In this document: one piece after another, positions 1 through 19,985 of the stretch
How the letters are laid out: each line of letters starts with the position of its first letter
Position numbering within the stretch: the stretch's first letter is position 1
Origin: Rhodamnia argentea
Lineage: Eukaryota; Streptophyta; Magnoliopsida; Myrtales; Myrtaceae
Assembly (NCBI RefSeq): GCF_020921035.1
Contig: NC_063152.1
Span: 31,681,903-31,745,902 of the forward strand
Direction: 5' to 3'
Length of the DNA stretch: 64,000 bases
Made by a program: the position numbers and the translations under genes
The notes under the pieces: model-generated
Database searches by the model: none
Seen by the model: only the letters and a program-made list of their open reading frames with translations
Told to the model about the DNA's origin: nothing

Positions 1-635
1 GGAGCGGTGCACCACGGACGGCGAGGCGGCGGCGACTGCGGGGGTCGCCAGGGCCACCGGCGGAGAGCTCGACGAGATCACTTGCTCGTCGCCGGAGTTC
101 GCCGGAGACACGGTCAGACCCGCGACCGGCATGGCGGCGACCGTCACAGTAGCGGTTCCGGCAGCAGCAGCCGCCGGGGAGATCTTCCTGCGTTGTATGT
201 CGCGGAGGAGGGCCTTCTCGCCTTTCCGGAAGCAATCATTGGCGAACTCCCACCGATCCGGCACCACCTTTCTGAAGCCCTAGAAGCCAATCGATTTGTG
301 ATCATCAACACGAAGAAGACTTGGCCGAAATAGAATCAAAGACCAGGGAAATGGGAAAAATCGCGTTCTGGGAATCGCAATCGCGGACTTACGTAGGTGT
401 TGAGCTGACGAACGAAGCTGGAGAAATTGTTGTGCTTGAAATACTTGGGGAGCAAATCCCTGGCGAATTCCGCTGGGCGCCACACGATGAACGTCGTCCC
501 GTCCTCGTTCCACGAGATCAAGTCGTCCACCACCGGATCGTCCACGAGCTGGTAAGTCTTGGTGAGGAAGGGCGTCGGAAGCGACCTCTGCGAGTCGCCG
601 GCTGCCGGCGAATCCCCGGTCTGCTCCCCCGGCAT
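1..635 (-). CDS. HSFB2B: Class B heat shock transcription factor, HSFB2b type (3' end outside window)
   Basis: Nuclear DNA-binding regulator of the heat stress response; class B factors generally act as repressors or co-regulators. Exon 1 is 393-635, intron 280-392 (113 bp, GTAAGT...CTAG), exon 2 runs from 279 off the left edge. The start [10 protein letters not shown] matches the typical HSFB2b N-terminus; an in-frame extension upstream to 776 has no family similarity, so I start at 635. Residues about 19-110 are the HSF DNA-binding domain, with [20 protein letters not shown] forming the recognition helix region. The intron splits it between NTY and [12 protein letters not shown], the position conserved in all plant HSFs. 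After [11 protein letters not shown] comes an Ala/Val/Ser-rich linker ([20 protein letters not shown]) as in HSFB2b. The oligomerisation domain and C-terminus lie outside the window. Identification is firm; the exact paralogue (B2b versus B2a) is inferred from the N-terminus and linker. Confidence 0.93.
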
Positions 636-1233
636 CAGTCCCCACGGGGCGCCGCCTCTCCCAGATCCGAAGCCTAGACACACACCTGGAGAGACACCGG
701 ACCAGACAAAGGCTCCAATCGAGTCAGCTCGCGGACGGTCCTGTATCGTACGCTGAACCATAAAACAAACACACACGAAGCTTCCTCCATTGCAGCAGAA
801 CCGAAGCTTCCCCTCACCAATTTAATTACGGAAAAAAAAAAAAAAAACCGACAAAGAAAAAACTAAAAATGAAAAGGAGAAAGAAACTATTTCTCCATCT
901 ACTGGCGTTTCGTCGGATGAGAATTTTCCCGGTTTCTGATTCCCAGCTAAGCAGGCAATGAGAAACGATGCACCAAAGCATAACGAATAAAAAAAAAGGT
1001 AAGAAGAAGGAGAGGTGTACCAGGGAAGCAGCGAGTCTTGGAGCTCCGATAAAATTTTATCACGGGCAGGGAAAATCACGGTCGGAGGAAGTTGATGGCA
1101 CGGGAAACCACCATCAAATCGAGCACCCCCACACCACGGCGCCGGTCGGAGAAAATCTCGCCGGAACGAACACGCACACGGAGAGGCGAGGAGGGTGGGG
1201 AGGGAGGGAGGGAGTTAGGTTTTCATTTGTTGT

Positions 1234-1246
1234 TTCTAGAAGTTTC
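1234..1246. promoter_or_regulatory. Perfect three-unit heat shock element (distal to HSFB2b start)
   Basis: TTCtaGAAgtTTC matches the nTTCnnGAAnnTTCn consensus exactly. A further GAA lies at 1252-1254 but not in the 5-bp register. It lies about 600 bp upstream of the HSFB2b start codon on the minus strand and suggests heat-inducible or auto-regulated expression. Whether it sits in the promoter or a long leader is not known because I cannot place the transcription start. Confidence 0.7.
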
Positions 1247-1498
1247 GTGCGGAAGTGGGGGGTAGAAAATGATGATGGAGAGAGAGAGAGAAAGAGAGAG
1301 GGTTCGAGAAGGAAAGGGAAGGAAAAGAAAGGGAGGGATAATTAGAAAAATAAGAAAGAGGATTTCTGGGAAAAGTGGGCAAACAAAAAGGGGTGGGGCC
1401 CGCAAAGGAGGTGGGGACAAAATGGGAAAGAGAGAGAGGAAGGAAGGTGCGAGAGTTGTGGGGGGGCGTGCGTGTGTAGCTTCTTCTTCCACTCTCCT

Positions 1499-1511
1499 TT
1501 CCAGAAGTTTC
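1499..1511. promoter_or_regulatory. Second perfect three-unit heat shock element
   Basis: TTCcaGAAgtTTC, again three contiguous alternating units, about 865 bp upstream of the HSFB2b start. The shared core GAAGTTTC in both elements is notable. Confidence 0.7.
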
Positions 1512-2324
1512 TTTCTTTCTCTGTCTCTCTCTCTCCAATTATTATTCCGCTTTTCCTTTTGAATTTCTTCTTCACGGGAAAAGGGGATAAATCTCAATTT
1601 TTCAAAAAAAAAAAAAATTTCCGGGGAAGTTTATTTTCTTCAATTTTTTTTTTTTATTTTTCCCCCTTTTTTTTTTTCAAATCTTTTATTTCCTTTATAA
1701 AAGGTGAGTTTTGGGGTTGGGGGGTTGGGAGCTGGAGCCTCTATGTGTGTGTGGGCGGGCGACACGTGTCGGGTGAGCAATGGAAAGCAGAGTCCAACTC
1801 CCAACGGATAAGGATTTCTGGGTGGATCCGCGAGTTCGCGAAAACTCCTTTTGCCATCTCATCGGATGAGGAGAGAGAAAGAGAGAGAGACACGACGCCC
1901 TTTTTAAGGTAAGATCGCGCCCTTAGCCTCTTTCGTAAATTTGGGGTCGGACACGTTCGGTTCGTTTCCAAAGGCCTTTCCACCGAAGATTTGCTCCCGC
2001 GAATCGTGTTTTTTTGTTTTTTCTCCTCGCGATCCGAAGATGCCAGCCCCAGTAGCCCAATTATCTGGAGACCCGCCCCCGAAGACGGTTCGAAAACTCA
2101 ATGGACCGGTGGACCGGCCAAGTCCGTTCTTTCGACACATGCGAGCGACCCTGGACTTTGGCTCGGCGGAAAGGGATTCTGCGCGAGGTCGGCGACTCCT
2201 GAATGTGCGACCTTCGACTTCCCTGAGTTCGAAATCTCTTGATGCCCGATCAATCGCACCAATCCCGAAGTCGAATAAATCATGTTTGAGCTTCTCGTGT
2301 AGAAAACAATCGAGCAAGTACCTA

Positions 2325-2855
2325 AAAAGTAATGTTGCATTTATGTCAATTTAATCATAAATCTTTCGATTGTGATGATTTGATCACAAATATTTTCACA
2401 TTTTATCAATTGAACCACTGGCGTGGATGGCCGACAGTCCCATGTGGTATGACCGACCCTAACGTGAACATTTTTCTTATAATATTTTAATAATCTTTTT
2501 TATTCCCTTATCTTTCTGCTAGTGGCTGGAGGTGGACCCTTGCCTACATTGGCCCTCTCTTGTGGCGAGGAAGGGCAATCCTCACCTAGGCGAGATCGGC
2601 CACCGACCAAACAGAAAAGAGAAAGTAAAAAAAAAAAGGAAAAAGAAAAGTAAAATATCAAAGATTTTATTAAAGAAAATGTCAATGTCGGCGTAAGCCA
2701 TGCCGACAGCCATGCCACGTAAGACGATCAACATCAACCTCAATAATTTTTTTATCTAAATTGGCAAAACGTGAGAATATTTGGAATAAATTGACACAAT
2801 TGAATGGTTTGTAATTTTTTTTGGTATTTTTTTCCATAAAAAGTCATTGTAACTA
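2325..2855. repeat. Foldback repeat family FB, copy 1
   Basis: First of about 21 copies of one family (label FB is mine). A copy has two long imperfect inverted arms with phrases such as AATTTAGTCCTAAACCTTTT and its complement GGTTTAGGACTGAATTGGCA. Inside these are copies of a TACGTGGCACGGCC-like motif in opposite orientation, and the centre is a GC-rich GCCGGCGAGGG core flanked by a pyrimidine tract on one side and a purine tract on the other. The whole can fold as one hairpin of 400-700 bases, and no copy codes for anything. This copy has a degenerate core (CTTGCCTACATTGGCCCTC) and well-kept outer arms. Confidence 0.6.
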
Positions 2856-2860
2856 TGAAT

Positions 2861-3439
2861 GATCATCGGATACTCATAAGTCGTTTTTTTTCTCATTTGT
2901 CTCTTTATACAACATTTTTTACTTTTTTCCTCCATGCAGAAAAATTTTGGTACTAAAATAAGCGAGGTACATAAAAATACTTATGATGTCCTCACGTCAA
3001 TTCAAAACTTATGTAGGAAACGATCCAGCCATTCCTTTCCAATTCTTAAAACGAGGGAGGGTTTTTGTACATCATTCGATGACGTCATAAACTAGACGGA
3101 GACCCGCGAGGTGCGTCCGATTACTATGATTTTATGCAATCTTCTGTTTTCATTTATCACGACCTTTAATATTACAGGTATTTTTCTAAAAGTTATTTTC
3201 GTTGGTTTTGAAAAGAAGAGCATGACGACACGTGATTTTTATAGAAATCCTATTTCTTTTTAAGGGATGAACTCTAACATTGTCTTTCCAACAAGGCGGG
3301 TGTGCATTTAAAAAATTGTGAAGAGTACATAACCCCAGGAATTTCAATGATTATACACTTTTACCCCCCTAATATTTTTAAGAACACACAAAAATCCCAT
3401 TGAGCTTTCGTTTTATTTGCACGTGCTTAACATGGACAA
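2861..3439. other. AT-rich spacer, nothing recognised
   Basis: No open frame of note and no repeat arms; poly(T) runs and scattered TGACG/ACGTG motifs only. Confidence 0.6.
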
Positions 3440-3850
3440 AATTACTAAAAAAGTCCTAAATATATTAAAATTATGCCAATTAAGTCCTAAAATTTTTATT
3501 TGTCAATTAAGTCTTAAATCTTTTGCAATTGTGCTAATTCAATTCACTTTGCGGACCGATACGGACGTGGATAGTTTTTAATAATATTTTTTTTTCTTCC
3601 TCATCCTATCGTGGCTGGCGAGGGCTTCACGGCTCCCTCAAAGGCCCTCGACGGTCACAATAAGATTAGGAAGGGAAAAAAAAGAAAGAGAAAAAAATAT
3701 TAAAAATTGTTCATGTCGGTGCCGGACGGCAGAGTAAACTAAATTAGCACAATTGTAAAAGGTTTAGGGACTCAATTGAAAGAAAAAAAGTTTAAGACTG
3801 AATTGGCATAATTGTAATAGGTTTAAAACTTCTTTGGTAAATATCTCACT
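3440..3850. repeat. Foldback repeat FB, copy 2
   Basis: Short copy (about 410 bp) with both arms. The left arm has AAGTCCTAAATATATTAAAATT; the right arm ends GTAATAGGTTTAAAAC. The centre is GTGGCTGGCGAGGGCTTC. Confidence 0.65.
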
Positions 3851-4067
3851 TAACTTGTCCTTCTTCAAGGGCAACTTTGTAATTTTTCTTGAATTGTTTA
3901 GTCATAGGAAAAAGTAGAGAAGAGAATATTATTATGGTTATTTTCTTGCCAATATTTTACATGTTATTATTAGGCAAGTACAATTGGCAAAATGGACGGA
4001 AGGTTGACGATCGTAACAAACTGAAAAATTTAGAGGGAGTTTTATGCATCACATACTTCTGGTTTAT

Positions 4068-4215
4068 GATTTTTTTTTTTTTTGCCTGGTCTTATTCTAT
4101 TCTATTTTACAAGTTACCGTGTGTGCATAGGTTGCGAAACTCTGCTCTCTCTTCACGCGTCTCCACCCCAACTCTCCCCCCGAAAGTGGGTATTCGAACC
4201 CCTCACCTCTTCCTT
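4068..4215 (-). mobile_element. tRNA-derived SINE-like element
   Basis: On the minus strand a B-box-like GGGGTTCGAATACCC (about 4187-4201) is followed by GGGTGG-rich body sequence, TAAAATAGAATAGAATAAGACC and a poly(A) tail (poly(T) at 4069-4083 on the plus strand). This is the layout of a plant SINE. Related copies lie at about 10,155 and 22,215. No clear target duplication was seen. Confidence 0.45.
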
Positions 4216-4809
4216 TTCAAGTGAGAAAAGTGGCCATCGGAGTTTCATAAATGCTACTATTGGCAATGACTGTATTTTTCCATTTATTATATTCTTTGTG
4301 GACGACATATATGAATTATTGAATTATCCAATACTGGAAAAACGTGAGGTGATGACAATTGACCATTTGAACTCCGCCATTCAACCCACAGAAGAGGTGG
4401 GGGAACGACCACAAAGTTGACTTAGACCTCTTGAAAAGCAAAAAAATAAATGTTTCTCGAAATAGATTAGCAAAATGGAAAATATATATATGATCTTCAC
4501 CAAACAAAAAGGCCATTAAATGGCCAAATCTTGGCTATGGCCTATACTAGCAGTACGTATAAGGTCCACACTAGCAAGATTGGTCCTGCTAACATTTATT
4601 CTCCAATGCATTTTGTACTCATTATAGAATCTAATTAGTAAATTATCTTTCCTTCAATAGCTGAAACTTCAATAAGTTGTTGATGATCTCCTCATTATGT
4701 CTTAGGATGCAAGGTTTAGACACTAACAATCTCCATTTTGCAAATCGGCAACAAAAACAAACTGCAAAGGATGGCAAAAATGACATTCGCGTGACACAAA
4801 TTTGAAGGG
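4216..4809. other. Spacer without recognised features
   Basis: Low-complexity unique sequence; only short open frames with no family similarity. Confidence 0.55.
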
Positions 4810-5335
4810 GAAAATTTTTCAAAAAGTTATAAACCTATTGCACTTTTACTAATTTAGTTCTAAACCTTTTAATTTTTTTGCAATTGAGCCACAAACCTTT
4901 TCAAATTTTGCCAATTGAATCAATTCGACCAATTCTAGCCGTAACTTGCCGACGTGAACGCAAGCCGTCTTACGTGGCACGTCGGCGCCGACCCAACAAC
5001 CCTCGACCCGGTGGCCGGCGAGGGGCCAGCGAACTTTTCCTCGTCGGCCATTTTTAGGAGAAAAAACAAAGAATAGAAATGTAAAGGAAAAACAGATAAA
5101 GAAAAAGAATAACAAAACATTCGAAATAATATTATAATACCATTAAAAATTGTCCGCGTCGGTGTCGGCCGTGCCACGTGGGACTGCTGACATCCACGTA
5201 AAAGATTCCGATCAAAATTGGCCGAATAGACTCAATTGGCAAAACGTGACAAAATTTATGACTAAATTGATAAATTTAAAAGGTTTATAACTAAATTGGC
5301 AAAACCGAAATAGCTTTAAGGCTTTTTAGACAATT
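4810..5335. repeat. Foldback repeat FB, copy 3
   Basis: Full copy with clear arms (ATTTAGTTCTAAACCTTTTA at 4852-4871; matching GACTAAATTGATAAATTTAAAAGG near 5258) and a GGTGGCCGGCGAGGGGCCAG core at 5011-5030. Confidence 0.7.
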
Positions 5336-6000
5336 TTCCCCAAATTTGAGATGCAAATGAGAAGGGATAGTGGAAGTCATCTCCTCCAACACGATTTGGC
5401 TCATGTGGTCTGTAGCGAGAAAGCTTTCACGGGCTCCATGAAGTTGTCTGGACTCAATCAGTAATCCTTTCGAAATGGGTGAGAGTTCCACGGGCGCAGA
5501 ATGTCGATTTCTGCGGTGAACTCGTGATGAAGTGACCAAGATGGATAGATACTAGAAGTTGGCGGTCCAAATTATGGAAGGAACAAAAGTTGGAGGATGA
5601 CATTTGATAATGACACAAGTTGGAGGACTAATTCAAAAGAACAGAAAACAACAAGGGAAAGTTAAACTCGACTACTCGGTAAAATTTTGTGGGATGGTGT
5701 ACTACAATTTCTCAATGGGCTCGACTCGATTGTCTGTGATAGGAGTCTTCATAGACTGGACGAGCTGGGCCGTTTTGGCTTTAGTTGGAGGAGGCTGGTA
5801 AGGCCAATATAATTCAACAAAGTGATTAAATTCCAATTTGGAGCAAGTATTTCTCGTGTGACGACGCGTGACATTAGGTGTACCGATCTAATTGAAAGCT
5901 AGCGATTCCTAAATAAGTGCCAAGCAGGATGACAAGCATGTCATTCTAGACAAGATGATTGGTCGGTGGCACCACGTTAATTGCCCTCGTGACTGAGACG
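5336..6000. other. Unique spacer
   Basis: Short frames only (for example 5604-5801) without similarity to known proteins and without promoter or splice context. I see no gene. Confidence 0.5.
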
Positions 6001-6507
6001 TGTAATACTTTTCCCGATTCGTGACCTCTAGTGGTGAGTTGAACTATGCAATGTCGAGAGCTGGAGACGACATGCAAGTGAGTAACCTTGTTTTTAAAGG
6101 AGAATGAAAGGGCCCCACCAAGACACGGGGATAGTCTGGTTTACGTAAGTTATACCAGTCTTCAAACAAGATTATTGGGATACCATTAAAATAAAAGGGT
6201 GCATTTGCTTCGTGGTAAATCAATGATGTTGAAAATTTTTTCTTAAAAATCATCACCTGCATTGCTTGAAATTATTAGTTAGTAAAAAATAATTCCATCG
6301 TTCATGCAATTGTTCAAACGTAAATTGTTATCGGTAATGAAAACATTTCTTATTAACTAATTATTTCAAGCGATACGAGTGATCATTTTTTAGGAAATAC
6401 TTTCTAAATCAGTCATTATTCGTGAAACAAACGAGCCAAAGTCATCATTCATCTTCCACAGTTGACCTCAGCATTTAGACAATGTACGAATCAAAAATTT
6501 ATTTGTT

Positions 6508-6785
6508 TGACGTGGTCCCCGAGTTTTGTTGTAATATGTAATGTTATTCCTAAACTTTAAATTTATTCAATGTGATCTTTAAATTTTTGGTTCATGGTCA
6601 GTCTAGTTTTTCAACTATATGAAAATATTCAATGTTGTCTCTAAACTTGAATTAATGAAAGGACAATATTGAGTATTTTTTCTATAGTCTAGGGCTAAAT
6701 TGAACATATACCAGAAATTCAATGACTATATCGAATAATTTTAAAGTCTAGGAATCATATTATACATTGAACCTGAATCAGGACT
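6508..6785. repeat. Second foldback/MITE-like repeat type
   Basis: Imperfect inverted arms around TTCAATGTTGTCTCTAAACTT and CTAAATTGAACATATA; distinct from FB because it lacks the GC-rich core. A copy is at about 29,600-29,945 inside the duplicated unit. Confidence 0.45.
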
Positions 6786-7227
6786 ATCGGCGTCACGTAA
6801 CTTACTTGTTTACTATTGAGGAGAGAGATTGGTTCTTTTCGTCAGATAGAGTCTCCACATGGATTGCGCTTCGAAGTAAAGCAGTCTTTGTGGAAAGTCA
6901 CCGTCTCATGTCGGGTGGTGCCTAACTTGTCCCAAAGTCAAAGGTCTTGGTCGTGACATGATCCTTTTTCTCCACACTCTTTCTCATTCTAAAATTCCGT
7001 TTCGCACTTCTAGGAAAGGAGAAATTGAAGGGCTCACATCATAAGCAAATTAATTCTTTTTCGATTTGATATGATTATTACGAAGTGCGACATCTAAACC
7101 ATGTCCCGTCTAAACTTAGAATACTGAATACATTAATAGTTCTTGATTTGAAAAATAGGTCATTCTGATAGTGATATATACAGATAGAAAGTGATGTTTA
7201 CTATTGCCGAATTCCACGACTAGTTCC

Positions 7228-7439
7228 CGGCCCAGCTCCGAGCGGGTCCAACACCCCATGCACCACCATGTTCGAGACCGACCCATATTATTGCAACTCT
7301 AGAAGCCGTGGTCCTACTAATTCCTCGAAATTTTTCAATGATAAGTGTCCGGATGCTCATAGTTACCTTAAGGAATGATCGGACCGGCACATTTCTACGC
7401 CTGGATGGGAGTAATTATAGGGTCGTGTCTTGCCCTTGA
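7228..7439 (+). pseudogene. Thaumatin-like (PR-5) pseudogene fragment a
   Basis: Only the C-terminal part of a PR-5 protein is left. The reading YYCNSRSRGPTNSSKFF...KCPDAHSY aligns with [27 protein letters not shown] of the intact genes at 26.8 and 33.8 kb. Lesions: loss of half of the CC pair and of the next cysteine, and a stop right after SYLKE; a frame change is needed to recover the terminal CPGG region. The original TGA is at 7437-7439. Nothing upstream of the C-terminal domain is recognisable. It is the partner of fragment b at 30.5 kb. Confidence 0.75.
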
Positions 7440-7614
7440 AGAGCTCCTTTTTAAGTCTATATGATAGATGGAATTATGTGCACGGACGCGAAGGCGACGT
7501 CATTATAGTCATCGATGTGGCAATTAGACAAGTGTTGGGAGCTATTTGAGCAGTGTCGTCTTTATCCATGAAATAAAACACGAAAAGTATTCTTGAGCCT
7601 GCCTTATGTATTAA

Positions 7615-8325
7615 TAAACCTATTTCATTGATACCATTTCAGTACTAAATTTTTTAATTAGATCAATTTAGTCATAAATATTTTCGCATTTGTATCAAAT
7701 CAGTCAATTCGGCCATTTTTGGTTGGAAATCGTCCTACGTGGCGCGAACGGCTCTCACATAGATATTTTTTTTAATGTTCTTTCTAAAAAAGAAATTATT
7801 TTTTAAAAATATTAGTTTAGTTATATATTTATTGCTCTCATTCTTTTTTTTTTTTTGCTTCGCATTGGCCGACGAGGGTCAGAGTCACCGGGCGAGGCCC
7901 GGCTAGCCCTCGTCGGCCACTGCGAGGGTCGTGGCCCTTGCCGGATTTGGGCGAGGCAACCCTCATCCGCCACCGCGAAGGCCTCGTTGACAGCACGTGA
8001 GGCTGCGAAGGCACTCGCCACGTTGCTCGGCGAGGGTTGCCGGCGACCCTCACCAACCAAAGTGAAAGATAAATAAAAGAATGAAAAAATAATAACATTT
8101 ACTTTCAAAAAAAATATATTTGAAAATGTCCACGTCAGCGCTGATCGTGCCGTATAGAATGACCAGTGTTCTTGTTAGCGATATCTAACAAAAATTAGCT
8201 GAATGAATTGAATTGGTACTAATGCAAAAAGATTTAGGACTAAATTAGTCCATTTGAAAAGTTTAGGACTAAACTAGTATCAATGTAATACGTTTGAAAC
8301 TTTTTTAATACTTTTCCGTCGAATT
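7615..8325. repeat. Foldback repeat FB, copy 4
   Basis: Long copy with an enlarged GC-rich core (7859-8053: GCCGACGAGGGTC...CACCAACCAAAGTG). The right half, from about 8055, was copied with its flank to 24,076-24,355 in inverted orientation. Confidence 0.7.
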
Positions 8326-11421: not shown

Positions 11422-12739
11422 TGTGGTCTAGATCAAGGAGCCACCTTCATTTTTGCGAGAACCGGCCCGATTTCTATCAGCCGGTTCGCTTGAGCTGGAC
11501 CCCGACAGAATTCAGCGGAAACCAAAAGCCGGAAGCAGAAGTCATCCCCACCCTCTTTCGCGCGCACAGTGAAGCAGAGTGGGGAGACACCAAAAGAAGC
11601 TCAGTCAAGCCTGCGCCTTTTCCTCCGCAAATGCTGCATCAGAGATCCCCCTCCCCCCTGCTCCTTGGTGATCTTCTGAACACAGAAGGGACAAAAAACA
11701 CAGCTGGATGGTGGAGCTTCAATGGGTTTTAAGAAAAAGAGAGGCTGAGAAAGAGAGAGAAGGGCCAAGTAACAAGGAGGGCAAAGACCACCAGGGAGAG
11801 AGTTGGCTGGGTTTCGCATGTGATTTTTGGCTCTGAAAATCCAGGACCGAGAAGCAAGAAAAACTAGGAAAAATCGAGAGAGAAAAATAAGAGGAATCCG
11901 GAGTTTCGAAGATCTCCGGCGTCCGTGTTGAGTCCTATTGCTCGCCACTAGGCGCTCGTCCTTTTTGGGCCAGGTAAATCTCTTTCCGACACTCTGTTTT
12001 CTCCCCTGCTTCTTGGTAACCAAGAACACTAACTTCAACCGGTAGATCCGCAGTTCAGTCGTGATAAAACGAAGATGGATTGGAGTAAATAGTGTCGACT
12101 TGAAGTGTCATTTATAAATTTTATGCCGAGAACTCCATTAAACTTGAATGGAAGTTTGTTTGCTGCGCTGCCTATAACCTGTGCGTTGTTTTGCTTAGCT
12201 GGTGTTTAGCACTAGGCTGTTGTGCGATTGCTTCATTGACTGATGATCGTCTGCGGTCGAGTTTTCTTCCATTTTATGCTTTTGGTTCTCAGTGCCAACC
12301 ATCCACGAGCTTGAGGCGTTTTTCCAGACTTACTTCTCCGGCAGTCTGCGGCTACAAAAATCCTTGTGTTAGTTTCTTATGCTTTCGCTTTAGTTCGGGA
12401 CTAATCATCGATCGCGGTAAGAGATTAGATAGATTGTTGATGGAGAGTGCGGTTTATGTTCATGCTTGTTGTTGAATGCCGGGATCGGTTCGCTGGTAAA
12501 AAGAAAAAATCAGAGTCGGGCCCGACGGCTGCTGTGACTGACCGGCGGTCCCGTGAGGTCCAAAGGAGAGGACCTGTGAAGAAGACCCTGTGAAAAGCAT
12601 CGTGGAGAAGACGACCTCCTGTGGGTGATGAGAATGGGCAGATTGAGTGCACGCTGGGGCATTTCTTGCAAATCAGGCTAGAGGATTTGAGGTCTGATCT
12701 GGTCTTGGGCTTGAGGCTTGGACTTGTGTTAAATTTGAG

Positions 12740-13711
12740 GGATTCGGATCCCCTGCCATAGAGGATTAATGGCAGGGGTGACATAGAACAAAATCCGGCC
12801 GTCCGTTTGAATTCGAAGGCCGAGATTCGTCCACGTCATCCGAAGAGGGGTGCTCAAATTTTGGGCGCGCGAAACCAGCGTTTCTAAATAAAAAATTAAA
12901 AAATCTACTTTTCTCCCTCCTCCTCTGTTCGCTTTTACCTCTCTCTCAAACTTCCTCCATCCTCCTCCTTTTGCTCCGGTGACGTTCCTCTTCGACGCCG
13001 GCATCTGCGGAACTCTCAAATTTCCTCCATCGTCCTCCTCCTTTTGCTCCGGTGGCGCTCCTCTTCGACGCCAGCATCCGCGGAACCGCCGTCAACTTTC
13101 CCGACACCAAATCCGGAGGCGTGTCAATGGCTTCGAAGCCGAGCACATATCCATCTCTCTAAAAAAGATTACGACTACGTGCGCATCTCCTCGATTACAG
13201 GTTGGTGCTCGATCGATCTCCGCTTCTCTTCTTCGGATTTAGTTTCTATGGTTTGGCATTCTTGAGAAGTTTTTAGGGTTTTTCGGTTTAACTCATGTTG
13301 GTGAGTCCGGGACTTTGCTTTGCTCTGCATCTAAATGTCCGCCGAACTCGAGGCTGGATTTTCGAGGATTGGCGCGGATGAGTTGTAGAAGCACCCGATT
13401 GGTGCGGTCTTTGTTGTTTTCCTTGGTGAAGAACAGAGAGGAGGAAAAAAATTATTGAGTGTTGTTAGAATCAGTACCGTTTTGAATATTTAGTTGAATT
13501 ATCTGCCCCTGTTTTTGTAGAGGCCTTTTATCATCGTTCTTACGAGGCGATTTTCGTTCTTGTGCTTATTTTGATTCATTCGGAAAGAAGGAAAAAAAAA
13601 AGATACTTCTATGGCGGTGTATTATAAATTTAAGAGTGCAAAAGATTTCGATTCAATTCCTATGGACGGTCCATTTATATCGGTTGGTATTTTGAAAGAA
13701 AAAATTTTCGA
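12740..13711 (+). repeat. Pack-MULE left terminal inverted repeat, ~972 bp
   Basis: Aligns almost without gaps to the reverse complement of 18,236-19,214. Besides the outer transposon end it contains CTCCTCCTTTTGCTCCGGTG repeats, a leader-like stretch and the start of the DWNN exon. Captured host sequence has therefore become part of the inverted repeat. Homology stops inside the DWNN exon (SVGILKEKI against SVGVLKEKF). Confidence 0.85.
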
Positions 13712-15522
13712 ACCAAAGCACTTGGGCAGAGGCATTGATTTCGACCTTGTGGTAACTAATGCTCAAACTAATGAAGGTGGGTTTCTTGCTTCATGAATCA
13801 ATTAAATTTTTTTAACAATTAAGGCTATCAAGTTTGGAGAGAACTGTCTAGTGGGAAGCTGTTTGTGTGGCCTTTTGAGTCTAATATTGGTGATGTTTAT
13901 GCTGAACTTGTCGAGGCTGAAATGATTGTGAGTGAGGTATTCATAGTGTTAGGGCCTGGGTTTTGGCCTGAGGTAGCAATACCCGCCGATCCCGAGTCTT
14001 TTTGTCAAATGAACCGTGGTAGTGTTTGTGTAGTGCGTGCTAGCAAGTGATTTGTATGTTGTGATCTTTTTTTTTTTTCTTTTTCTTGGGGGGGTGTTGG
14101 GGGAGGAGGAGTAGGGTACATTCTCCATGATTAACATCACCTAATTTGACATTTGAGGGGAAATTGAGCTCTCTGGAGAAGCTTTTAGAGGCTGACCTGA
14201 TGATTAGTTAAGGCTGGCTGAGGGAGGAGGAGGGTACTTTCTCCACAATCAATATCACCTAATTTGATATTTGAGCGGAAAAGAGCTTCGGGGAGAAGCT
14301 TTTGAAACATTCATGCTTATCTTAGCAAGCAATTTAAGTGCAAACTTCGGGAAGCAATACCACCATCAACTTCATTCCATGACATGACACTATTACAGGT
14401 GGTGGCAGGTGGTGGTGCATTTGAGGCTGCATTGTCTGTCTACTTGGAGTATGTAGCAACGACGCTAGGATCCCGTGAACAGTTGGCTATTGCACAATTT
14501 ACCAAGTCATTATTAATTATACCAAAGGTCTGGATTAACATGCATTGATGTTTTTCAAACTTTAATTTGATTTTTGTTTGGGCTTAATGGAGCACCGCAT
14601 CCTATTTGCCAAGACTTTGCAAATTATCTTCCTTGTTTTATTAAATTATTTTTCTGCTGAAGGTGCTTGCCATCAATGCTGCAAATGATGCAACCGAGTT
14701 AGTTGCAAAACTACGGGCTTACGAGCACACTGCACAAACTAAGGCCGACAAGAAGCATTCGTCGAGGTAATTCTTTGTTGTGTATTACAATGTTGTCTTT
14801 TGCGGTTGGCCAGCATTTAGGTAATTTAAGATTGGCTCCATTGATGTTTCTTTTCCATCCCGCATATTTTATTCCCTGGAAGGAGTTATTTTTTGAATTC
14901 GAGATCACCTTCACATACTCGTATATAAACACGTGTGGAATGGAGTTGATGATGGAGGAGGGTCTTATCCATATATATTCTCTTTGTTGCACTTTGATAC
15001 TTTTAGGAATGCAGATGCTCTGATTTAGAAGTTCAAAGCTTGGTTGATTGCCAATCATTAGAAAATTTGTTGCTTCATCTATTGGTTGTCGCATTTTATT
15101 GGTTCTGTAACTTCTCATATGGTTCAACGAACTTGCTAATCTCACTTGATTTTGTTCGGTGGATAATTTTTTAGGTTTCTCATCAAAGTGATTACTTTGA
15201 TCTTCACAAGAATGCTTTGTAAATTGAATGCTAATGCCCCTTGGTGTTGTATGTCACTTCTCTATGCTATTTTAGGTTTGTTGAAATGCCAAAGGAATAC
15301 TATGCTGTTTTCAATGGCCGTAATATCGGCATATACGATAATTGGCCTCAAACTGAAGTTCAAGTAAGTGGTTTTAGTAATGCTAATTACAAAGGATATA
15401 ACAATTGGGAAGCCGCAAAACAGGCATACTTGAAATTTTTCAATATGAAGGAGTTGCCAACGACAATTCATTTACCTACACGATTTCGTCCCAATAATGA
15501 ACATGTGAAGCAGGTATGTTAG
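13611..15522 (+). CDS. Predicted chimeric gene in Pack-MULE: DWNN + CCT1 + RNase H1 N-terminal domain
   Basis: Proposed exons: 13,611-13,776, 13,824-13,927, 14,399-14,527, 14,663-14,766, 15,276-15,522; 249 residues. Exon 1 (MAVYYKFKSAKDFDSIPMDG...DLVVTNAQTNE) is the DWNN ubiquitin-like domain that opens RBBP6/PQT3 E3 ligases. Exon 2 (35 residues, QVWRELSSGKLFVWPFE) is of unknown origin. Exons 3-4 (VVAGGGAFEAALSVYLEY... and VLAINAANDATELVAKLRAY) are CCT1/TCP-1 alpha. Exon 5 (YYAVFNGRNIGIYDNWPQTE) is the RNase H1 N-terminal RNA:DNA-hybrid-binding fold. Exon phases 1, 0, 0, 2 all match and there is no stop until 15,520. Caveat: the first intron would be only 47 bp, below the usual plant minimum, so the first junction may not be used. 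Transcription is unproven; without it these are captured fragments. Confidence 0.5.
14100..14306. repeat. Tandem duplication of ~85-bp segment inside Pack-MULE
   Basis: GGGAGGAGGAG...TTCTCCA...ATCACCTAATTTGA...GAGAAGCTTTT occurs at 14,100-14,188 and again at 14,222-14,303. A reverse-complement piece is at about 17,507-17,556. Confidence 0.6.
14399..14766 (+). pseudogene. CCT1: Captured CCT1 (TCP-1 alpha) fragment, two exons
   Basis: Exon a 14,399-14,527 (43 codons, acceptor TTACAG, donor AAG/GTCTGG) and exon b 14,663-14,766 (acceptor TGAAG, donor GAG/GTAATT). They read GGGAFEAALSVYLEYVATTL, LGSREQLAIAQFTKSLLIIP and ATELVAKLRAYEHTAQTKAD, a close match to the C-terminal equatorial region of chaperonin subunit CCT1. 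Apical and N-terminal regions are absent. The host intron is retained, so this came from genomic DNA. Confidence 0.85.
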
Positions 15523-15595
15523 TTCCTTACTCTTGTAATAAGACACTTTAATTTTTCAATGGTTTAGGGATATAACAATTATATGGTTTATTGTT

Positions 15596-15862
15596 ATGTC
15601 TAATCGGGACGATGATTGTCCCAATGGTTGTAGCCGTATAATTAGAGATCTGAAAATGGAGTTGGAACAAACCCGATTTGAGCTGGAACAAACCCGAAGG
15701 GAGCTGGAACATAGCCAATGTTCACATCGATTGACTATACAAGAATTGGAACATACAAAAGGTTCGCTTCGATTGACAGTACGGGAGCTACATAATGCAA
15801 GGGAGGCGAATGACAACTTCCAAGATATGATTAGTGGCTTCGGGAATGTTAACATCGATTAG
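15596..15862 (+). CDS. Small coiled-coil open frame in Pack-MULE
   Basis: 88 codons, MSNRDDDCPN... then LEQTRFELEQTRRELEHSQ, LTIQELEHTKGSLRLTVREL: strongly heptad-like, probably a coiled coil made of a short internally repeated unit (LEQTR-ELEHT). It follows the RNase H1-like exon by 74 bp. None of the acceptors I see joins it in frame to that exon. It could be a downstream exon of the same captured gene or an independent start; no protein family recognised. Confidence 0.35.
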   Translation: MSNRDDDCPNGCSRIIRDLKMELEQTRFELEQTRRELEHSQCSHRLTIQELEHTKGSLRLTVRELHNAREANDNFQDMISGFGNVNID

Positions 15863-16109
15863 AAATGCTTCTTGCATTATTGTTTTGTGGAAGATGTAGC
15901 TTGAACTTATAGGACATGAAAAAGATGTTAGTATATGCATTTATGCCTTTGTAATCACTCAAAAGTACATGCTACCTTGTTTCTGGAGATTTAGAGCTTC
16001 TTAATGAATATTACTAAGTAAATGTGACTACCTTTTATATTTGGTCCTCTCTCTGTTAAAGATTCTTTGCATACGGCTTATACGCTCATACAGAAGGATG
16101 ACCGGTAAT

Positions 16110-16405
16110 GTCGCAGACAGGTTTTCATGTTTTTGCTGCTGAGAATTGTTTGTGTTTTTTTTGCAGGGCACGGAATGACTTAGTGTTTTTTTTTTTTTTA
16201 ATACAACCTACCCTTGTTGAAGTTTTTCCCTCTAAGTCGCAAACAGGTTTTCATGTTTTTGCTGCTGAGAATTGTTTGTGTTTTTTTTTTGCGGGGCACA
16301 GAATGACTTAGTGTTTTTTTTTTCTTAATACAACCTACCCTTGTTGAAGTTTTTCCCTCTAAGTCGCAAACAGGTTTTCATGTTTTTGTTGTCGAGAATT
16401 GTTTG
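16110..16405 (+). repeat. ~126-bp tandem repeat, 2.3 copies
   Basis: Unit GTCGCA(G/A)ACAGGTTTTCATG...TTTTTCCCTCTAA starts at 16,110, 16,236 and 16,363. It is inside the Pack-MULE and non-coding. Confidence 0.85.
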
Positions 16406-18235
16406 CATACGCCTTATAAGCTCTTAATGCTTTTTTTTGCGCTTTAGAACAGTCGGGGTTGGTTAATGAAGGTTGTGTGAGGAACACAATAACCACCTCC
16501 TACTGTGAGAGATATTTAGACTATCGCGTAATGACATCTTGAAAGGAGGACAGGCATGAGGAGTCTCATAGTCCTTTCCTTTCCTCCACTCTATCATGGA
16601 CATTACTTCGTCGCCCAATCAGCATTTCTTTCTTTGAAACGTATATATGCAAATCTTCTTTCCTCATTGATGAAAATGAATTTTACTTTTCCTTTTCATG
16701 TCCCCCTTTCAGATTTTTTTTTAACTTTTCTTTTATGAAAAAAAAAAGTTTTTGATTCTACGCTAAAAGGGCTTCACATTAGAAAAGTGCCAAACATGAA
16801 TGAAAAACCGAGGTCAGGTACAAATTATATAAACGACATGAGTTTGCACAAGAGACAAATTCCAACCAATAAGCTGTCCGAGAAAAGCATCACTTCTCAT
16901 TAAAAGCATCACCGCTATAGGTATCCCGATCTAATCTCGGGAAAAGGCCGTAATGCTTAGAAAGGGGGAAAAATATATTATTCATTATCATGCTAAACTT
17001 CCCTTTACAATTGTCATTTATAGATATCAAAAGAAATGAAGGCCTACCCCTAAGGTACATTCTACCAGTACATTGTCCGAGGTAGGGAGTTATAATTTTT
17101 TACATTTTTTACATTTTAACGAACAACTACTTAGAGGATTCTTAAAATGCTTCTCTCAAACAAACTAACATAAAAACAAAACGAAGAAAAAGATGAAACG
17201 TCTTCTTTTCACCAAAAGAAAATTTGTTTTAAGAGGAGCATATAAGTAAGAAATACTAATCACTAAACATTATATTGCCTGCCCCAATTGCGGTCACCCC
17301 AACTTTTAACCCACCAATAGCAGAGACTATCGCATCAGGAAAAAACAAGAAAACTATGAAGACATGGCCTACAATGATGATGTAGACCTACAATTCCAAG
17401 TAAATAACCCACATGTATATTGAACATCCAAAAATACATTGCCTTAAAGACATCTCAAATACACCGCATTTGGTTTCTAAGCCGCTGATTTAGCATTTGG
17501 TTTCTATGATTCAGCTTCTCCATAGAGCTCTTTTCCGCTCAAATATCAAAGTAGGTGATATTTACAATTCCAAGTAAATATCCCGCTTACAACTGTTTTA
17601 AAACCATCGAGAACAACGAACTGGAGGCCCAACAACTTCTTTTTCGGTGCCAGGATCGGTCGTGGATTATACTTCTCGGTCTTCATACAATTCAATTATG
17701 TTGTTGGAAATAAGACTTCAATACGTTCTCTTCCAATCATTTTTTGCAGGATTTTAGTAGCTTTTCTTTCGGTCTGCGAGAGACTTGGTGATGCATTCAT
17801 ATCATGGTATAGTTTCAATTCAACACAGCAGAAGAATTAACTTCAATAACCTAGAGTAAGAGATTTTCTTGCTATCCATGCCTTGAAATCTTTTGATTCT
17901 CGCTTTTTCTTGAAGGTTACCATTGTACGGCGAAGTGAAGTTCGCTTTCTTCGTCTATTTATGGCATCCCCGGACAAAGGTATGCACCGAGGATTTATGT
18001 CTACTTCATGTCTCATCCAACGCAGAATTTGAGAACTTCTTTTTGAGTTCATGATCTTTTTGCCCCCCTTCAATCATTTTTGAAATTTCCAGGGCACACA
18101 GTACATCTACTGCTACTTCTTTCGGCCATACTTGGCCATCCATGAGAAGGTCATCGACCGTAACTTGCTGGAGCCGAAGGTGATGGCGGGGGATTACGCA
18201 GTTTCGATGTGGCAAAAGGCAATGAGCTACGATCG
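16406..18235. other. Pack-MULE right interior, unidentified
   Basis: Two minus-strand open stretches (18,215-18,006 with VWPKEVAVDVLCALEISKMI; 18,073-17,843, basic) may be exons of another captured gene, but I recognise no family. The remainder is AT-rich. Confidence 0.4.
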
Positions 18236-19214
18236 GATAAATTTTTCTTTCAAAACACCAACCGACATAAATGGATCGTCCATAGGAATTGAATCGAAAT
18301 CTCTTGCACTCTTAAATTTATAATACACCGCCATAGAAGTATCTTTTTTTTTCCTTCTTTCCGAATGAATCAAAATAAGCACAACAATGAAAATCGCCTC
18401 ATAAGAACGATGATAAAAGGCCTCTAAAAAAACAGGGCTCGATAATTCAACTAAAGACTCAAAACAAGACAGATAATTTTTTTCCTCCTCTATGTTCTTC
18501 ACCAAGGAAAACAACAAAGACCACACCAATCGGGTGCTTCTACGACTCATTCGCGCCAATCGTCGAAAATCCAGCCTTGAGGTCGGCGGACATTTAAATG
18601 CAGAGCAAAGTCCTAGACTCACCAACATGAGTTAAACCAAAAAGTCCTAAAAACTTCTCAAGAACGCCGAATCATAGAAACCAAATCCGAAGAAGAGAAG
18701 CGGAGATCGATCGAGCACCAACCCGTAATCGAGGAGATGCGCACGGAGTCGTAATCTTTTTTAGAGAGATGGATATGTGCTCGGCTTCAAAGCCACCGAC
18801 GAGCCTCTGGATTTGGTGTTGGGAAAGTCGACGGCGGTTCCGCAAATGCCGGTGTCGAAGAGGAGCACCACCAGAGCAAAAGGAGGAGGACGATGGAGGA
18901 AATTTGAGAGTTCTGCGGATGCCCGCGTCGAAGAGGAACGTCACCGGAGCAAAAGGAGGAGGATGGAGGAAGTTTGAGAGAGAGGTAAAAGCGAACGGAG
19001 GAGGAGGGAGAGTGTCGATTTCCCCTGATTTGAGGAGAGAGAAAAGTATATTTTTTAATTTTTTATTTAGAAAAGCTGGTTTCGTGCGCCTAAAATTTGA
19101 GCACCCCTCTTCGGATGACGTGGACGAATCTCGGCCTTCGGATTCAAACGGACGGCCGGATTTTGTTCTATGCCACCCTTGCCATTAACCCTCTATGGCA
19201 GGGGATCCGAATCC
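18236..19214 (-). repeat. Pack-MULE right terminal inverted repeat, ~979 bp, with second copy of the DWNN exon start
   Basis: Reverse complement of 12,740-13,711. On the minus strand it holds a second ATG (18,334) followed by AVYYKFKSARDFDSIPMDDP, truncated after LKEKF. Differences such as K/R and G/D show moderate divergence between the two repeats. Confidence 0.85.
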
Positions 19215-19741
19215 AAATTTGAGCGGGTCGCTAGCTTGGGCCAGGCGAATAGAGGAGGAAGAAGGTGAGCAAAGAAGGAAAAGTTGTTGTTGGAGTTGGG
19301 CCTAGGTTTAGAAATTCGTAGGCCTTTTTCTCTCTTTGAAAATATGTCTGGGCGGATGGGCTGGAGAGTGGGCTTCAGAAATACGGTTGGGCCACGCATT
19401 GAATTTGCGGATTGGGCCATTGGAGGAGAGAATAGGAAGAAAGTTGGGCCAGGTCTAGATTTAACTAAAATTAGGCTTTAGAATAAAAATTGGGCCTCTC
19501 TTGAAGTCATTAAAAAAATATAAAATGGGCCTAGCCCAAGTTTGCTTTTGGTCTTAGACTAATTCAGGCCCTTAAGGCCCGAGTTGGGCGCTTATGGCGT
19601 GGGCCGGGTTTGTTGGCCCTGTCAGGATAATTTTCTGCAAATAAAATTATTATTAAAAAAACGAAAAATTCATATTCTAAAAAAAAAAACTCCAAAAAAT
19701 TCTCAAAAAATCCCAAAAATTAGGATTTGGCTCATTTCAAC

Positions 19742-19985
19742 GGATCCGGATCCCCTTCCATAAAGGTAAGGGTGACATTGAGGGATTCGGGCCATCCATT
19801 TTAAAATGGGTGGCCAGATTCATCCACATCACCTTTTAAAAGGAGAGAAAATTTTTTGATGGGAAATTTTAAAATTTTAAAAAAAGTGATGTGAATCAAT
19901 TCGGGCCGTCCATTTTTTATTTGGACGGCCCAGATCGATCATGCCACCCCTAACATTACTAAACAATGTTAGGGGATCCGGTTCC
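19742..19985. mobile_element. Mutator-type MITE, 244 bp
   Basis: Ends GGATCCGGATCCCCTTCCAT and (inverted) GGAACCGGATCCCCTAACAT resemble the Pack-MULE terminus. Flanks are CATTTCAAC (19,733-19,741) and CATTTTAAC (19,986-19,994), a 9-bp duplication with one change. The inside holds GGGCCGTCCATTTT-like inverted repeats. It inserted in the solo LTR. Confidence 0.75.

Follow-up and report, generated by a model that had tools for sequence, protein, structure and literature searches.

The closest described counterparts of the element reported here are the Pack-MULEs of rice (PMC13317346), tomato (PMC3310237) and maize (PMC3276141), which, in the portions of these papers considered, share with it long terminal inverted repeats (TIRs), a 9-bp target-site duplication (TSD), intron-bearing fragments of host genes in the interior and a presence in multiple copies. 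The usual fate of such captured fragments is to become pseudogenes, together with some expressed chimeric transcripts, according to the part of the rice account used here (PMC13317346). Tgm-Express1, a CACTA element of soybean with five gene fragments, is comparable in carrying captured exons with native splice sites; in the sections of that report on which we draw, these exons are joined through canonical splice sites into numerous chimeric RNAs, some of which have an open frame with intron sequence in it (PMC1947982). Given this precedent, use of the native sites would be expected at the present locus, and a chimeric RNA would also be possible. Lastly, MULEs with multiple or tandem TIRs, as far as the extracts of the tomato study describe them, are carriers of gene fragments in which the TIR has been remodelled (PMC3310237), as is the case here (compare the second TIR of the sister element C9a, below).

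Pack-MULEs have no transposase of their own, and in the present element no transposase domain was recognised among the 10 open reading frames (ORFs) and 5 pieces scanned (25 ORFs overlap 12700-19300). In contrast to the Pack-MULEs of these accounts, the captured DNA is found in both inverted repeats, with a DWNN leader and start facing inward from each end, and unlike in the tandem-TIR MULEs, the arms include host gene DNA and not a second TIR (PMC3310237). Tgm-Express1 belongs to another superfamily, and its transcripts were shown by cDNA, whereas the analysis here covered the DNA (PMC1947982). A clear precedent for gene DNA inside MULE inverted repeats was not found in the literature covered, which includes the parts considered of PMC3310237, PMC8903248 and PMC3276141 and takes in little of the subscription literature; we do not claim novelty for it.

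The window is a stretch of 64,000 nucleotides from Rhodamnia argentea (NC_063152.1), in which the initial annotation had joined five captured exons into a potential new DWNN-CCT1-RNase H1-N protein. In our analysis, the locus is very probably an ordinary Pack-MULE with three recognisable captured pieces, and the 249-codon chimera an accidental passenger of it.

Structure of the Mutator-like element

The element (Table 1) is flanked by a perfect 9-bp TSD (AAATTTGAG), and its two arms of about 970 bp agree at 88% over the whole arm with gaps and at 90-95% in the five main ungapped blocks. The TSD and the long inverted repeats characterise it as Mutator-like, and the host-gene sources that can be named for its content as a Pack-MULE.

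Table 1. Features of the element, with their positions in the window and the evidence for them.
Feature	Position	Strand	Evidence
Target-site duplication, left, AAATTTGAG	12731..12739	.	
Mutator-like element (Pack-MULE)	12740..19214	.	inverted arms, perfect 9-bp TSD, nine related elements compared
Left terminal inverted repeat	12740..13709	+	captured RBBP6-type DNA from 13335 on
RBBP6/PQT3-like capture: 5' leader, exon 1, part of intron 1	13335..14303	+	95% to L022 4209-4854 and 4900-5079
DWNN exon 1 (first exon of the model)	13611..13776	+	DWNN profile positions 1-53 of 74
Model exon 2, a pseudo-exon from intron 1 of the source gene	13824..13927	+	TAA of the source at the equivalent of codon 58
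CCT1 (TCP1-alpha) capture: exons 14399-14527 and 14663-14766 with intron sequence	14392..14939	+	88-91% to L026, L027, L028
RNase H1-N/coiled-coil-like module: exon 15276-15513 and ORF 15596-15862	15210..15862	+	Cauli_VI 54.1 bits; 21 sequences aligned
Inverted copy of 14251-14300	17513..17562	-	50 bp
Right terminal inverted repeat	18236..19214	-	holds a second, truncated, inward-facing DWNN leader and start, about 34 codons
Target-site duplication, right, AAATTTGAG	19215..19223	.	

Ten elements, including the one in the window, were compared. They account for 20 of the 22 DWNN matches, which are their paired arms; the remaining two, which were not included, are L022, the source gene, and a further left end (L040, C4:30893737). 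Neither a diverged DWNN match (C4:21226110) nor the RNase H1-N copies outside the ten were counted as elements. Nine of the ten have a 9-bp TSD, six with all nine positions matching (one of them with a one-base offset) and three with eight; the exception is C9a, where three of nine positions agree. About 1.6 kb outside the left end of C9a, the TIR occurs once more and faces the same way (L009 7744 and 9382), and this element is possibly a tandem-TIR form. On C4, two DWNN-bearing left ends about 5 kb apart (L040 and L012) have an identical outer flank, which is also the flank of element C4 and suggests local duplication.

In each of the ten elements, both inverted arms contain DWNN sequence with the captured leader and start. 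The right-arm copy in the window, of which the leader and about 34 codons are left, still matches PF08783 with 30.2 bits. The arms of the elements C3 and C11 are alike over about 1.5 kb at 88-91% and hold practically the whole RBBP6 fragment (to 14300). In view of these longer arms, the inverted copy at 17513-17562 is probably the remnant of a right arm that was formerly longer. Five related loci outside the ten (L019, L020, L021, L024 and L025), which gave no DWNN match, have at most the outer ~420 bp (to ~13160) in common with the element, at 72-82%. Since DWNN stands in both arms and these loci share the outer part alone, the alignments indicate that host DNA, once captured, is now part of the inverted repeats, which is mildly unusual. 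It could have entered both arms by copying from arm to arm during repair.

Sources of the captured pieces

The initial annotation regarded the locus as host-gene fragments captured side by side, and sources could be named for two of them. The DWNN piece comes from a gene (L022, G000:C3:30735000-30744500) in which DWNN exon 1 (at 4485), intron 1 and exon 2 (EYQDEAMLIPKNTSVLIRRVPG..., at 5251) are all in line, and which we take to be RBBP6/PQT3-like from its DWNN match and from known relatives. That leader and start were copied from the DWNN donor, as had been proposed, is borne out by the agreement of 13335-13979 with positions 4209-4854 of this locus at 95%. The three CCT1 loci (L026-L028) contain further CCT1 exons up- and downstream that are absent from the element. 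Two loci with related TIR ends (L024 and L025) carry a CCT1 piece whose left junction lies near 14298, as in the window, and have no DWNN match, which is why CCT1 was probably captured before DWNN.

The third piece, the RNase H1-N/coiled-coil-like module, yields 38 matches at the protein level across the genome, with a few copies counted as two pieces. It is found in related elements (L018-L021) and also in L025 and L048-L053, and thus in more than one repeat type. L049 and L050 represent another repeat type, alike over 4 kb (87%), and match the window between 14900 and 16900 in the module alone. Stops occur in 17 of the 38 matches, and some copies are frameshifted. As read from the sequence, the exon and the ORF of the module are out of phase at the visible acceptor. 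A source gene for RNase H1-N was not found among the genome matches; C5:17944817 (L054) was considered and rejected, because its DNA match stops at window position 15484, short of the exon end.

The five-exon model and its joining exon

The model itself could be reproduced: exons at 13611-13776, 13824-13927, 14399-14527, 14663-14766 and 15276-15522 (166+104+129+104+247 = 750 nt) join in phase to 249 open codons and a stop, and the four junctions are all GT..AG, with phases 1, 0, 0 and 2. The DWNN, chaperonin and RNase H1-N pieces can also be written in one frame with three domains above the Pfam cut-offs, namely DWNN (PF08783, 70.9 bits, profile positions 1-53 of 74), Cpn60_TCP1 (60.6 bits, 371-440 of 490) and Cauli_VI/RNase H1-N (54.1 bits, 2-43 of 44). 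The stop at 15520-15522 may be intronic, as it lies shortly downstream of a splice donor (CAG|GTATGT).

A new chimeric protein, which the initial annotation had put forward as a potential reading of this frame, is not supported, and one reason lies in the exon that joins DWNN to CCT1. Both the 47-bp "intron" and the whole of exon 2 of the model lie within one real intron, intron 1 of the RBBP6/PQT3-like source gene. Joined directly, DWNN exon 1 (phase 1) and CCT1 (phase 0) are out of frame. All seven joins of DWNN to later exons that were tried without the pseudo-exon break the frame, six of them at codon 64 and the combination of DWNN with RNase H1-N at codon 86. Three observations on the pseudo-exon count against a passenger reading: the TAA of the source gene has become CAA in the window and in several sister elements, six of the eight exon combinations that include the pseudo-exon are open through the last exon, and, judged by eye, both its acceptor and its donor (ATT|GTGAGT) pass as usable splice sites.

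The 249-codon frame owes its existence to an open part of the intron captured from the source gene, which allows a reading as an exon. When the 622-bp joining stretch was shuffled by dinucleotides, an open, frame-fitting pseudo-exon (at least 30 nt, with flanking introns of at least 47 nt) was present in 300 of 300 cases. The real stretch allows 41 such models, many of which use the same few AG and GT sites, as opposed to a shuffle mean of 19.2, and 10 of the 300 shuffles reached this number; the real stretch is therefore more open than average. A longer frame of 75 codons around exon 2 is free of stops in seven of the ten elements, which also counts against the passenger reading; it is interrupted in the remaining three and in the source gene.

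Sister copies

A functional chimeric gene should keep its frame in related copies. The five-exon model is intact in one of the ten elements, the window copy itself. All five segments are kept in three elements; both CCT1 exons are missing in five, CCT1 exon 3 in one and the RNase H1-N exon in one. Exon 1 of the model is frameshifted in C9a, and exon 2 contains a stop in C11a. In C3b, a donor reads GC, exon 2 is interrupted by a stop, the acceptor of exon 3 is lost and exon 5 is missing. Both CCT1 exons are absent from C8, C11b, C5a, C5b and C9b, and C11b also lacks part of exon 5. C4 lacks exon 3 and the acceptor AG of exon 2; its remaining segments, when concatenated, are open to the end, a point against the passenger reading. 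The exons are about as distant from those of the sister copies as the introns are. As the sister copies do not keep the frame, no constraint on the joined protein was seen in this comparison of ten elements.

Codon changes

Changes on terminal and internal branches were counted on parsimony trees and compared with expectations from the noncoding spectrum; they are given here in the order silent/replacement/stop. The counts are small throughout, and the codon control for RNase H1-N comprises 131 noncoding bases. On terminal branches, observed and expected values were 12/35/1 and 12.8/33.8/1.4 for DWNN, 6/17/3 and 6.7/16.4/2.9 for the pseudo-exon, 32/67/13 and 27.0/75.9/9.1 for RNase H1-N (20 copies, with L054 left out), and 25/46/7 and 20.9/50.5/6.6 for the coil. 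The CCT1 exons were compared in four copies each, with 5/5/0 observed and 2.8/6.3/0.9 expected for exon 4, and 8/8/0 observed and 4.4/10.9/0.7 expected for exon 3 (P = 0.045, uncorrected), the latter again a point against the passenger reading. Internal branches gave 5/5/0 against an expected 2.7/7.0/0.3 for DWNN (P = 0.098) and 5/16/0 against 5.1/14.2/1.7 for RNase H1-N. Singletons numbered 4/17/0 in DWNN of ten elements (expected 5.3/15.1/0.6) and 8/9/2 in RNase H1-N of nine elements (expected 4.7/12.8/1.5, P = 0.073).

Pairwise pN/pS, a ratio that also takes in time spent within source genes or active elements, came to 0.65 for DWNN (13 rows, among them two right arms and the source gene). 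The two CCT1 exons gave 0.40 and 0.38, the coil gave 0.45 and RNase H1-N gave 0.38. Between the window and the source gene, DWNN shows 2 silent and 4 replacement differences (pS 0.060, pN 0.030). The comparison of the window with the three CCT1 loci resulted in a pS of 0.148-0.238 and a pN of 0.053-0.063 for exon 3, and in a pS of 0-0.081 and a pN of 0.052-0.065 for exon 4. The Ka/Ks comparison that had been proposed as a check on the chimera is thus divided in its outcome: the near-neutral terminal branches of DWNN, pseudo-exon and RNase H1-N speak against the protein, and the marginal silent excess in one CCT1 exon and the pairwise ratios of 0.38-0.65 speak for it. Judged from these codon patterns, single pieces may be, or may have been, under weak constraint.

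Interpretation

We regard an ordinary passenger as the most likely explanation, since one protein can be read here only if part of an intron serves as exon, and the frame is not kept in the nine sister elements. A Mutator-like element, probably non-autonomous, would have gathered the CCT1 piece and the RNase H1-N/coil module and then, probably, the RBBP6/PQT3-like 5' end. With a transposase presumably supplied from elsewhere, it then gave rise by transposition to ten or more copies, as the copy structure and the TSDs show. Both the RBBP6 piece and the CCT1 piece were captured at the level of genomic DNA, intron sequence included, so that real splice sites came along. If the locus is transcribed, splicing at these native sites would be probable and would shift the frame between DWNN and CCT1, with a stop at codon 64. 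Most likely, to go by the copies compared, the locus gives rise to no conserved protein, and any effect on the host would be exerted via small RNA or a change in how the source genes are regulated.

The window copy could instead be a young chimeric gene whose transcription is driven by the RBBP6 leader or the TIR and whose RNA, spliced as in the five-exon model, is translated into a DWNN/CCT1/RNase H1-N protein. This reading agrees with an open frame of 249 codons whose junctions are in phase and have canonical dinucleotides, with a start codon accompanied by its own leader, with the pairwise pN/pS values and with the chimeric transcripts from captured fragments described for Tgm-Express1 in the part of that report used here (PMC1947982). 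However, it requires an exon made from an intron of the source gene, the frame is intact in this copy alone, and terminal-branch codon changes are near neutral, with CCT1 exon 3 as a marginal exception. Moreover, the DWNN domain is cut at position 53 of 74, and the chaperonin piece spans 70 of the 490 profile positions; folding as in the source gene product would be unexpected for either piece. We therefore consider a young gene very improbable. A slightly better, though still poor, chance is given to the idea that the RNase H1-N/coiled-coil module is the unit that matters, perhaps kept for the life cycle of the element, with DWNN and CCT1 as passengers. The number of its matches in the genome, its occurrence in L018-L021 and, as the module alone, in the other repeat type, its pN/pS among nine elements and its singleton counts would agree with this. 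Against it stand the parsimony counts, which are near neutral on terminal and internal branches over 20 copies, the stops in 17 of its 38 matches, the frameshifts in some copies, and the out-of-phase join of its exon and ORF. The least probable suggestion, which we mention as speculation, is that a MULE with host leader, start and first exon in its inverted repeats launches host-type N-terminal DWNN peptides inward from both ends, and that one arm of the window copy happens to have acquired a translatable DWNN/CCT1/RNase H1-N protein, which might interfere with ubiquitin or chaperonin partners.

With the passenger reading preferred, the case shows how readily a new protein can be deduced from captured exons if a pseudo-exon is available in the stretch between them, and that the structure of the source gene and the sister copies should be checked before a chimeric protein is claimed. 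The element family also offers a modest but fair example of genes captured one after another, and of how host DNA comes to belong to the inverted repeats of a transposon.

Further observations

Some parts of the element and its surroundings lie outside the three named pieces. The segment 17563-18240, possibly a further captured piece, is 95-96% identical to the sister elements C4 and C9a over its length, and is shared with five others over about 293 bp and with C11:21223170-21223831 over 662 bp. An HVA22-like fragment at about 18091-18235 was considered and rejected, as it had no Pfam match up to E = 1 and a genome search with PF03134 had no match in the window or in the C11:21223170 copy. A weak match to Vanabin-2 (17.8 bits, cut-off 25) was likewise disregarded. 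Window positions 1-8000 had no match in a plasmid collection. The sequence at 16681-16851 is a single unit in the window; in sister elements it recurs about every 187 bp, with 20 matches in L014. Just outside the element, a short stretch at 19741-19981 with GGATCCGGATCCCC-like ends shows about 74% identity to part of L024 and is perhaps a small related non-autonomous element.
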